From positions 1-44,415 of the forward strand of contig CALUJF010000023.1 in NCBI GenBank assembly GCA_944320855.1: 44,415 nucleotides of DNA, given 5' to 3'. Below are positions 19,450-44,415 of the stretch, in pieces (the first letter of the stretch is position 1; the number at the start of each line of letters is the position of its first letter). The position numbers and the translations under genes are program-made. The notes beneath the pieces were generated by a model that worked only from the letters and a program-made list of their open reading frames with translations, searched no databases and was not told where the DNA came from. The DNA is from an uncultured Phocaeicola sp. GTDB taxonomy: Bacteria > Bacteroidota > Bacteroidia > Bacteroidales > Bacteroidaceae.

Positions 19450-19545
19450 AGTTTACGAGTTGACAAGGTTTTAGCTTCGCTGACTGTTGGTTGACTCCGT
19501 CGATTTTCAATTCATCCGGATGGATAACCTTGTCAACTTGTAACT
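19450..19545. repeat. fold-back repeat in the radA / COG2509 gap
   Basis: Left arm at 19450-19470 (AGTTTACGAGTTGACAAG then GTT) and right arm at 19526-19545 (AACCTTGTCAACTTGTAACT) are reverse complements except for one indel and one mismatch. The core contains GACTGTTGGTTGA. The arm recurs at 41173-41192 with one mismatch. Confidence 0.75.
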
Positions 19546-19567
19546 GTAGCCTTGTTTCCTATAATTT

Positions 19568-36882: not shown

Positions 36883-37002
36883 GAGTTTTTAAGTTTTTAA
36901 GTTCTTGAGTTTTTGAGTTCTTAAGCTTTTAAGTTCTTGAGTTGGTTGATGATAGCATAAACAAACTTACAAACTTATCAACTTACAAACTCATCAACTT
37001 AC
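36883..37002. repeat. inverted array of 8-bp units between folP and cdaA
   Basis: Eight exact-period units of RAGTTYTT type run from 36883 to 36946, and five units of the complementary type (AAACTTAC, CAACTTAC) from 36963 to 37002. The core is AGTTGGTTGATG. The right arm extends into the folP coding end. Confidence 0.88.
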
Positions 37003-37831
37003 AATATATCTTCACCGCCTCGCAAGCCTCCTTCACATCATGCACCCTCAGTATGTTGGCTCCTTTCATCAGTGAAATGGTGTTGAGTACGGTTGTCCCG
37101 TTCAGTGCATCTTCCGGAGTATTGCCGAGAAGTCTGTATATCATTGATTTTCTTGATATTCCCACTAAGATAGGAAGGTCGAATATGCGGAACTCTTCTA
37201 ACTTGTCCATGAGCATATAGTTATGTTCCACAGTCTTACCGAAGCCGAATCCCGGGTCGATGATGATATCCTTTGCACCGAGGTCGCGCATCTTCTGTAC
37301 CTTTTCTGAGAAATAGTACAGAACCTCTTTCACTACATTATCGTATTCAGGATTTTTCTGCATGTCCTGCGGAGTGCCTTTCATGTGCATCATTATATAT
37401 GGTACACCTAATTTTGCCACAACAGGCATCATTCTGTCGTCCATGCTTCCGGCCGAAATGTCGTTGATTATTGCCACACCGTGTTCTTCCACACACATCT
37501 TTGCTATATCCGCGCGGAATGTATCTACAGAAATCACAGCTTCCGGCATCTCCTTATTTAATAAGGTAAGAGCCTTTTTCAGTCTTGAGGCCTCTTCTTC
37601 TGTAGAGATATGTTGTGCGTCCGGTCTTGAAGAGTAAGCTCCGATGTCTATAATCTCTCCGCCTTCGTCGATTATCTGTCTGGCCCTCAGTAATATATCC
37701 TCTTCCGATTGCTTTCTGCTTCCGGCATAGAAGGAATCGGGAGTAACGTTCAGTATTCCCATTACTCTGGGTTGTTCCAGGTCCATCAGACAGCCGTTCA
37801 CATTGATGTATTTTGCTATTTTGTTTTCCAT
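36983..37831 (-). CDS. folP: dihydropteroate synthase
   Basis: Joins para-aminobenzoate to 6-hydroxymethyl-dihydropterin diphosphate in folate synthesis and is the sulfonamide target. The 282-residue protein has MGILNVTPDSFYAG, IIDIGAYSSRP, IDPGFGFGKTVEHN and GISRKSMIYR, all typical. ATG at 37831 is chosen over a frame extended to 37870 that would cross the promoter region. The final residues K-L-M-S-L and the stop come from the adjoining repeat arm. It shares a divergent gap with murF and probably leads a folP-cdaA unit. Confidence 0.95.
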   Translation of the reverse strand: MENKIAKYINVNGCLMDLEQPRVMGILNVTPDSFYAGSRKQSEEDILLRARQIIDEGGEIIDIGAYSSRPDAQHISTEEEASRLKKALTLLNKEMPEAVISVDTFRADIAKMCVEEHGVAIINDISAGSMDDRMMPVVAKLGVPYIMMHMKGTPQDMQKNPEYDNVVKEVLYYFSEKVQKMRDLGAKDIIIDPGFGFGKTVEHNYMLMDKLEEFRIFDLPILVGISRKSMIYRLLGNTPEDALNGTTVLNTISLMKGANILRVHDVKEACEAVKIYCKLMSL

Positions 37832-39247: not shown

Positions 39248-39343
39248 GAAACCGTTACACGTACGTGTTCCGCCCGTTACACGTACGTGTTCCGCGCGTT
39301 GCACGTTCGTGTTCCACGCGTTACACGTACGTGTTACGGTTTC
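39248..39343. repeat. 22-bp tandem palindromic array in the murF / araC gap
   Basis: Four units begin at 39253, 39275, 39297 and 39319, exactly 22 bp apart. Units 1, 2 and 4 contain the palindrome ACACGTACGTGT; unit 3 has GCACGTTCGTGT. The outer edges GAAACCG and CGGTTTC make the whole array an inverted repeat with one mismatch in the terminal 22 bp. It fills the gap between the two convergent stop codons. Confidence 0.9.
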
Positions 39344-41148: not shown

Positions 41149-41157
41149 ATTATATTT

Positions 41158-41265
41158 AGTTGACAAGGCTTCAGTTACAAGTTAACAAGGTTGTAGAATC
41201 GTTGACAGTTGGTTTCATTCGGACGAAGAACCTTGTTGGCTCGTCAACTTGTCAACTCGTAACTA
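41158..41265. repeat. fold-back repeat in the SDR / uxuA gap
   Basis: A left arm with AGTTACAAGTTAACAAGGTT (41173-41192) and a right arm (about 41229-41264) built of CAACTTGT/CAACTCGT units flank a core with GACAGTTGGTT. The arm matches the radA-gap element (19450-19545) at 19 of 20 positions. Confidence 0.75.
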
Positions 41266-41281
41266 AAAAAAAGTAAACATT

Positions 41282-42466: not shown

Positions 42467-42471
42467 AAATG

Positions 42472-42543
42472 AATAATTAAGAATTAATAATTAATAATGG
42501 GTGGAAACTGCATTGTTAATTTTTAATTCTTAATTTTTAATTG
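42472..42543. repeat. inverted array of 7-bp units between uxuA and the MFS gene
   Basis: Four units AATAATT/AAGAATT/AATAATT/AATAATG (42472-42499) face four units TTAATTT/TTAATTC/TTAATTT/TTAATTG (42516-42543), around a 16-base core. The arms can form an imperfect AT-rich hairpin. Confidence 0.85.
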
Positions 42544-42552
42544 AATAATACC

Positions 42553-44031: not shown

Positions 44032-44121
44032 TAGTTCTTTAGTTTTTGAGTTTTTCAGTTGGTTGATGTTAAAGAACTGGCAAACTTAAAAACTTATAAA
44101 CTCATAAACTTACAAACTCAA
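44032..44121. repeat. inverted array of 8-bp units before uxaC
   Basis: Left units TAGTTCTT, TAGTTTTT, GAGTTTTT and CAGTTGGT run from 44032 to 44063. Right units AAACTTAA, AAACTTAT, AAACTCAT, AAACTTAC and AAACTCAA run from 44082 to 44121, ending one base before the uxaC ATG. It shares the 12-mer AGTTGGTTGATG with the folP-cdaA array. Confidence 0.88.
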
Positions 44122-44122
44122 A

Positions 44123-44415
44123 ATGAAAGATTTTATAAACGAAGATTTTCTTCTGCAGAGTGATGTGGCAAAGATGCTGTATCATGAACATGCGGAAAAG
44201 ATGCCTATCATAGACTATCACTGTCATCTTAATCCGAAGATGATTGCAGATGATTATAAATTCAGTTCCATTACAGAGATATGGCTTGGTGGCGACCATT
44301 ACAAATGGCGTGCGATGCGTGCAAATGGAGTAGATGAAAAGTATATCACAGGTAAGGAAACTTCCGATTGGGAGAAATTTGAGAAATGGGCAGAAACAGT
44401 TCCATATACATTGCG
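44123..44415 (+). CDS. uxaC: glucuronate isomerase, 3' end outside the window
   Basis: Only the first 97 codons are present. The reading begins [18 protein letters not shown] and includes [18 protein letters not shown], whose H-x-H pair is a metal site of the UxaC amidohydrolase fold, and [20 protein letters not shown], a strong UxaC signature. UxaC converts glucuronate to fructuronate (and galacturonate to tagaturonate), the first cytoplasmic step of the pathway whose later steps are encoded upstream. Confidence 0.93.

Follow-up and report, generated by a model that had tools for sequence, protein, structure and literature searches.

REP and BIME sequences are small palindromic intergenic elements present in many copies, often within operons, each built as a single short hairpin with a conserved head tetranucleotide; their transposases are of the Y1 (RAYT) kind. 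MITE-like non-autonomous elements are small, palindromic and dispersed as well, and carry a target-site duplication and fixed terminal inverted repeats. The short tandemly repeated repeats, or heptamer arrays, of cyanobacteria have a period of about 7 bp and lie between genes; to our knowledge they are not built as inverted arms around a core. Among the papers listed by literature searches for a prior description of the build reported here, the one close match was the TAACTGA heptamers (MacGregor 2015, PMC4679880). In the portion of that paper available to us, these are direct intergenic repeats that for the most part lie a short way upstream of start codons and have a patchy distribution between genomes. 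Five Bacteroidetes are reported to carry them as well, and binding of a post-transcriptional regulator was proposed; one inverted case is given among 170 sets in the main genome. According to the accessible parts of two further papers, Bacteroidetes are generally without Shine-Dalgarno signals (PMC3155529, PMC6847099).

The arrays described below were found in a window of 44,415 nt, which is the whole stretch of DNA analysed (from an uncultured Phocaeicola sp., genome G000), and in related genomes. Like REP/BIME they are small, palindromic, intergenic and present in many copies, often in operons. They share small size, palindromic build and dispersal with MITEs, and no coding capacity of their own was seen, but no fixed terminal inverted repeat and no target-site duplication were seen in them, and they vary in length with added units. 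A period of about 7 bp and an intergenic position recall the cyanobacterial arrays, from which the inverted arms around a core set them apart.

The likeness to TAACTGA arrays lies in short, fixed-period, AACT-containing tandem units that are intergenic, patchy and near start codons (39 of 42 arrays here end within 17 nt of one). The unit differs, being AACTYANA with period 8 at our locus; the C7 type, AACTAAN with period 7, is close to TAACTGA but distinct. As far as the available text of PMC4679880 goes, TAACTGA arrays are direct repeats of one fixed heptamer, whereas the arrays here are usually inverted around a core, use degenerate units of 7 or 8 bp, coexist as several unit types and swap types at the same gap. 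Given the single inverted set among the 170 in that part of the paper, we regard three features as new here: arms in inverted orientation, the coexistence of several unit types, and the exchange of types at orthologous gaps. The first-pass annotation, made from the letters alone, had known of no named repeat family with this build, and our searches bear it out.

An inverted 8-bp array between folP and cdaA

The array separates two minus-strand genes, folP (dihydropteroate synthase, TIGR01496; 36983..37831) and cdaA (diadenylate cyclase, TIGR00159; 36087..36872), the start codon of the latter lying 11 nt past the left arm. AGTT words occur at 36884, 36892, 36900, 36908, 36916, 36924, 36932 and 36940 in exact 8-bp spacing, the one at 36924 reading AGCT. 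Eight RAGTTYTT units had been claimed: the 8-bp register is correct, but seven units fit and make up the left arm (Y-arm, 36884..36939, plus strand, one of them with AGCT), the count of eight having arisen because the first core unit, AGTTGGTT, was included. The core, AGTTGGTTGATGATAGCATAAACA, spans 36940..36963 (plus strand), followed by the right arm (R-arm, 36964..37004, plus strand) of inverted 8-bp units (AACTTACA/AACTTATC/AACTCATC); these are five, as originally stated, with AACT words at 36964, 36972, 36980, 36988 and 36996.

On the transcribed minus strand the left arm becomes the AACT arm adjoining the cdaA start, and the right arm reads as the last FolP residues and stop codon. The folP C-terminus K-L-M-S-L-stop, with cdaA next, falls within the right arm, and all five residues had been credited to it. 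However, K-L and its coding TGTAAGTT are common to four of five other relatives, so the array supplies only M-S-L and the stop codon.

Across 300 order-1 Markov simulations of the full window, no AGTT run at 8-bp spacing reached four (maximum 2), and the array is confirmed as real and far above chance. When folded as transcribed-strand RNA it has z = -4.08, none of 200 shuffles being equally stable. For the 12-base core AGTTGGTTGATG the genome has 4 occurrences, vs 1 for its reversed control; the window contains a second one at 44057, and cores akin to AGTTGGTTGATGATAACCAACT (or its complement) turn up again in other copies.

A family of array types within one genome

We named array types by their unit: A8, AGTTNNTR; B8, AGTTGACR with a CCATCCGGATGG-like core; C7, TTAGTTG; D7, TTAATTN; and E7, ACTAGRK. 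The three-unit 8-bp pattern AGTTNNTN (also written AGTTNNTNAGTTNNTNAGTT) matched 158 times in the G000 genome, with 100 of these 158 places listed, vs 0 for its reversed control. Pattern matches by type were 158 for A8 and 98 for B8, reversed controls giving 0 for both, and 49 for D7, for which the reversed control is nearly the same pattern as D7 itself and thus has no control value.

Within the window, a second A8 inverted array (44033..44118, plus strand) fills the gap between the stop codon of an MFS transporter gene and the uxaC start at 44123. The gap at 41149..41281 (plus strand), before uxuA, holds a B8-type inverted array of TCAACTTG/AGTTGACA units with a core around ATTCGGACG, and that at 42467..42552 (plus strand), between uxuA and the MFS transporter, a D7-type inverted array of TTAATTN units with core GGGTGGAAACTGCATTG. 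A B8-like element with a ATCCGGAT core (19450..19560, no strand assigned) is 88.8% identical over 89 bp to another genome copy.

A scan made blind to the unit, for 4-mers that recur 4 or more times with a constant spacing between 5 and 15, also recovered the periodicity. Spacings of 7 and 8 predominated: the scan gave 2 at 7, 10 at 8 and 1 at 11 among 72 G000 gaps, and 2 at 7, 9 at 8, 2 at 9 and 1 at 11 among 70 gaps of the related genome G018, vs 0 to 0.2 in shuffles, which preserve mononucleotide composition only, as do those in the scan of other unit texts and in the inverted-partner test below.

Three neighbouring, different gaps on contig C25 of G000 carry B8 copies 98.6-100% identical over 68-69 bp. 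The matching gaps of G018 contain no B8, and 7 B8 matches lie elsewhere in that genome. Near-identical copies in different gaps indicate that copies move or are copied between gaps. Movement had been proposed from the folP locus on its own; the array there does have many dispersed counterparts, and a sister type is present as near-identical copies in several different gaps.

The folP-cdaA gap among relatives

folP was found in 56 of 60 genomes of the genus, and the best 30 of these 56 loci were read. The close set comprises the eight genomes with FolP identity of at least 89%, G000 included. Three of them (G000, G055 and G018) have the A8 array at folP-cdaA. Short D7 half-arrays occupy the same gap in G028, G015 and G039; G022 has D7 units there, and in G046 a C7 inverted array precedes D7 units. 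FolP tails read KLMSL, KMMSL and KLMSL in the A8 species, and KLIFNS, KLIINS, KLIINS, KLVVGC and ...GKSNF in the five other close relatives; by reading of the sequence, the C-terminus is array-encoded in seven of the eight close species. A different folP tail had been predicted for orthologues lacking this array, with a tail conserved in species without the array counting against the idea. Among the close relatives the prediction holds, and none of the five keeps M-S-L. A partial look-alike exists in the distant, array-free genome G044 (locus L045), where folP ends in S-L-stop, encoded by AGTTTGTAA, with nine bases identical to those here. No such array was seen at folP-cdaA in the 22 distant genomes among the best 30 of 56 loci, and their tails differ; three of them (G011, G042 and G047) show a short D7-like stretch. 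The further claim that the array replaced the original 3′ end of folP stands in part: tails track array type, but the other tails come mostly from other short arrays (7-bp TTAATTN/TTAGTTG), so that none of the eight close species shows a plainly array-free ancestral end.

Aligned with the G000 copy over 110 bp, the A8 arrays of G018 and G055 show 98 and 99% identity, compared with 83-93% for the flanking coding sequence; the near-identity of the arrays could also reflect selection. In a tree of the flanks, the A8-bearing G055 is sister to the D7-bearing G028 (support 98/97), while the base of the close group is unresolved and leaves the number of array changes at folP uncertain. Measured per 120-nt bin, the flanks of these sisters share 87-98% identity, and the two bins adjoining the gap 94-95%. 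The A8/D7 split between sisters with similar flanks implies that the array was exchanged without its flanks, or was lost and replaced several times, and we favour exchange. An 8-bp array ancestral at folP alone, kept by purifying selection and independently replaced by 7-bp arrays in several species, would agree with the near-identity of the three A8 copies and with the unresolved base of the tree. Such a history would nevertheless require several independent replacements by similar 7-bp sequence, and such slow change clashes with the turnover at other gaps; we consider it unlikely.

Turnover between orthologous gaps

G000 and G018 were compared at 26 co-directional gaps, each 20 nt or longer. 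Arrays were present in both genomes in 11, in G000 only in 2 and in neither in 13 (p = 2e-5). The string of array classes was identical in 4 of the 11 gaps with arrays in both. The few comparisons with G028, G046 and G055 gave 5 gaps with arrays on both sides, 14 with none and 0 one-sided. Array type could differ at a gap: D7 in G000 stood against A8 in G018 at C25:13246 and C25:35431, B8 against A8 in the window gap 41149..41281, and B8 plus A8 against A8 plus E7 at C25:19781. At one orthologous gap the core was kept while the arms differed (106 vs 165 bp). A separate observation concerns the gap 42467-42552, where the outer D7 units are similar to those of G018, but GGGTGG... in the core of G000 stands against ...CCCACCC in that of G018, which looks like an inversion of the core between the arms.

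Placement, arm polarity and folding

Placement was surveyed in 226 gaps of 30-400 nt, from fetched segments of five genomes of the B. (Phocaeicola) caecigallinarum group with simple ORF calls. Co-directional gaps held arrays in 42 of 167 cases, against 1 of 28 for convergent and 1 of 31 for divergent gaps (p = 9e-5; with related genomes pooled, p-values for gaps overstate independence and are too small). The blind criterion gave 37 of 167 co-directional vs 2 of 59 other gaps. A preference for co-directional gaps was rejected as a general rule, since it fails in seven other genomes of the family (arrays in 26 of 202 co-directional gaps, against 11 of 65 convergent and 4 of 53 divergent ones).

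Counting any AACT or AATT as a start-side unit and any AGTT, AATT or GTTA as a stop-side unit, 39 of 42 array gaps had their last unit no more than 17 nt from the start codon. A first unit was found in 39 gaps, and in 36 of these its distance from the preceding stop was 20 nt or less. The few array-poor orthologous gaps seen are 11-35 nt long. The gaps that arrays occupy are otherwise very short, which would account for an element bounded by stop and start codons, and the shortness alone may explain why arrays end so close to the start codon. The 28 co-directional A-class gaps contain 0-8 AGTT and 3-11 AACT words; among 29 gaps, the start-side AACT arm was the longer one in 24 and the shorter in 3, with arms of equal length in 2.

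Of the 34 array gaps that could be tested in the caecigallinarum group, 24 had an inverted partner, vs 1.1 expected from mononucleotide shuffles; in the seven other family genomes one was found for 10 of 33 testable arrays. In A8 elements one arm tends to be YTT-rich and the other TRT-rich (correlation -0.74, p = 0.0004; 24 elements from G000, G018, G028, G046 and G055). The more R-rich arm was the right one in 6 of 9 forward cores, and the left one in 0 of 1 reverse core.

The two RNAs folded from the window beat shuffles (z -4.08, as given above, and -2.82). For 17 elements with at least 4 units per arm, own arms pair at -18.0 kcal/mol vs -22.3 for arms swapped between elements and -47.6 for a perfect partner, and 0 of 5000 permutations of arms paired as weakly as own arms; own arms were worse matched than swapped arms in the 24-element test too. 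Hence the hairpin is not tuned copy by copy: the stem is generic. The YTT/TRT polarity probably explains the poor matching of own arms. The same comparison argues against a tuned stem, and also against copying templated by the hairpin.

Distribution across genomes

Of 60 genomes of the genus, B8 was found in 10, and the same 10 are rich in A8 (15-275 matches) and D7 (9-49), while the other 50 have at most 5 A8 and at most 3 D7 matches. Two of the array-rich genomes, G056 and G017 (FolP identity 71 and 67%), are as far from G000 as most of the genus. At least one A8 match was present in 69 of 201 family genomes, with high counts in scattered genera, although the reversed A8 control is abundant in some family genomes without A8 and is therefore not neutral in this survey; across the phylum, 41 of 296 genomes had any match, mostly few or simple AGTT runs. 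Stretches from distant genomes contain 7- or 8-bp arrays with other unit texts (including GACTYGTW, TTAACTC, GTCAACGA and AATGTGAG), some beside the same CCGGA-type core. No arrays were detected in 35 gaps scanned in G042 (5.6 Mb). G056 and G520 combine high whole-genome counts with few arrays in the stretches scanned (1 of 25 and 2 of 38 gaps), which shows that density varies along genomes.

Several observations from these genomes stand apart. In G437, G438, G463, G466 and G492, units of the reversed control, TTGANTNN, are abundant and AGTT matches absent; stretches of G463 and G492 hold further unit types, some of which adjoin a CCATCCGGACGG core in G463. At loci L108 (G056) and L109 and L119 (G017) the common 8-bp unit AGTTNNTR accompanies cores that look unrelated to the others, so unit and core may have separate histories. 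Stretches L250-L254 of G474 combine coexisting 7-bp units (GAATGAA, AGTCAAA, ACCTTAG and ACGCTTC) with a longer intergenic repeat containing GTCAACAAAT words.

Origin and possible role of the arrays

We think that the folP-cdaA array is probably one copy of a modular interspersed repeat family whose members are copied between gaps and swapped by recombination. Dispersed copies, near-identical copies in different gaps, different unit types at the same gap and units added around a kept core are all directly seen. A full copy would consist of two inverted arms of 7- or 8-bp units around a small core, placed in a short intergenic gap and, in the caecigallinarum group, mostly inside operons. Spread would proceed by copying, swap or homogenisation by recombination or gene conversion through shared arm units, and addition or removal of units by slippage; an element could overrun a gene end, as seems to have happened at folP. 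No target-site duplication, transposase or recombination junction was found for the arrays; duplications were sought by eye, and the sequence outside the arrays is too short and diverged to show them. The weaker inverted build and the lack of a co-directional limit in the seven other family genomes speak against this reading.

Purely local microsatellite growth from AT-rich gap sequence, with no movement between sites, would account for the changes in unit number around a conserved core, and there is ample relaxed, AT-rich sequence in gaps. We disfavour it as very unlikely, given that cores are shared, that arm polarity is fixed and, above all, that near-identical copies lie in different gaps; simple slippage does not yield inverted arms. 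Movement of REP-type elements by a Y1 (RAYT) transposase would fit short intergenic palindromes in many copies, but no PF01797 protein was found in 9 of the 10 array-rich genomes, among them G000 (90% complete), G018, G055 and G056, leaving four of the five genomes richest in A8 without a Y1 transposase. The search was positive in 5 of 14 control genomes and in 6 of the 60 genus genomes, of which only G017 is array-rich. With arms that are tandem 7/8-bp arrays, unlike the single hairpin of REP, this origin is disfavoured too and is the most improbable of those weighed here. Intrinsic terminators or attenuators between genes would agree with the predicted hairpins (z -4.08 and -2.82). An intrinsic terminator is a G+C-rich hairpin followed by a U-run; the stem here is A/U-rich, its 3′ arm leads into A-rich sequence and a start codon with no U-run, and the arrays sit between co-directional genes, with a single case among the 28 convergent gaps of the caecigallinarum group, so that we hold this function to be highly improbable.

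The position before start codons raises the alternative of translational control, in which the A-rich AACT units before the start codon are bound by a ribosomal or other RNA-binding protein, with access to them governed by the inverted arm. Proximity to the start codon and the longer start-side arm are in its favour, as is the last 20 nt being less paired in 42 array gaps than in 104 array-free ones (0.62 vs 0.53, p = 0.0016), though this may stem from A-richness alone and pairing is no different 50 to 21 nt before the start. In the available parts of the sources, TAACTGA repeats occupy the same position elsewhere (PMC4679880), and RbpB prefers AU-rich sequence like that around Bacteroides ribosome-binding sites (PMC11697453); no motif resembling the AGTT unit is reported there for RbpB or for a P. 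gingivalis protein. The exchange of unit sequence between orthologous gaps and the 22 distant folP-cdaA loci without such an array, among the best 30 of 56, make it doubtful that control of this kind explains the arrays. We find it similarly hard to credit, if slightly less so, that a trans-acting activity in some Bacteroidaceae writes or spreads arrays of 7-8 bp units, commonly as inverted arms, with the unit sequence unfixed. The genome would then set whether arrays exist and the unit text would be free. The joint presence of A8, B8 and D7 in the same 10 of 60 genomes, with near zero in the other 50, points that way, as do distant genomes with arrays of other texts, some beside a CCGGA-type core; the inverted partner found for only 10 of 33 arrays in distant genomes does not.

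A role of the modular repeat at translation start is possible. In the mRNA the repeat would fold into an imperfect hairpin that leaves its surplus A-rich AACT units unpaired directly upstream of the start codon, and initiation without Shine-Dalgarno pairing should tolerate or even favour such units. If the modular family is real, a notable fraction of the spacers within operons of these gut bacteria would be exchangeable repeat rather than conserved regulatory sequence, rewritten between close species while the genes barely change, and able to supply protein ends. This would bear on the evolution of intergenic sequence, translation starts and gene ends in a phylum mostly without Shine-Dalgarno signals. 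It would bear, too, on the ways in which small palindromic repeats can spread when no transposase for them is known. The arrays may also serve as fast markers separating close strains.

Other candidates and repeats in the window

Two further ideas were set aside. Loss of the palindrome nuclease SbcCD as a general cause of tolerance was rejected, SbcD scoring above the family cut-off in 9 of the 10 array-rich genomes, with a weak match only in G017. A link to viral contigs came down to one core match with no array around it, taken as chance. Rfam covariance models at gathering score, run over the whole window, returned one tRNA only and nothing at the arrays. The window also contains repeats of other builds. 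Nearly four copies of a 22-bp repeat with the palindrome ACACGTACGTGT lie at 39252-39335, directly after murF (CCGTTACACGTACGTGTTCCGC), and are unlike the arrays. At 1146-1250 there are 12/24-bp in-register tandem repeats, which possibly code for a repetitive protein stretch.
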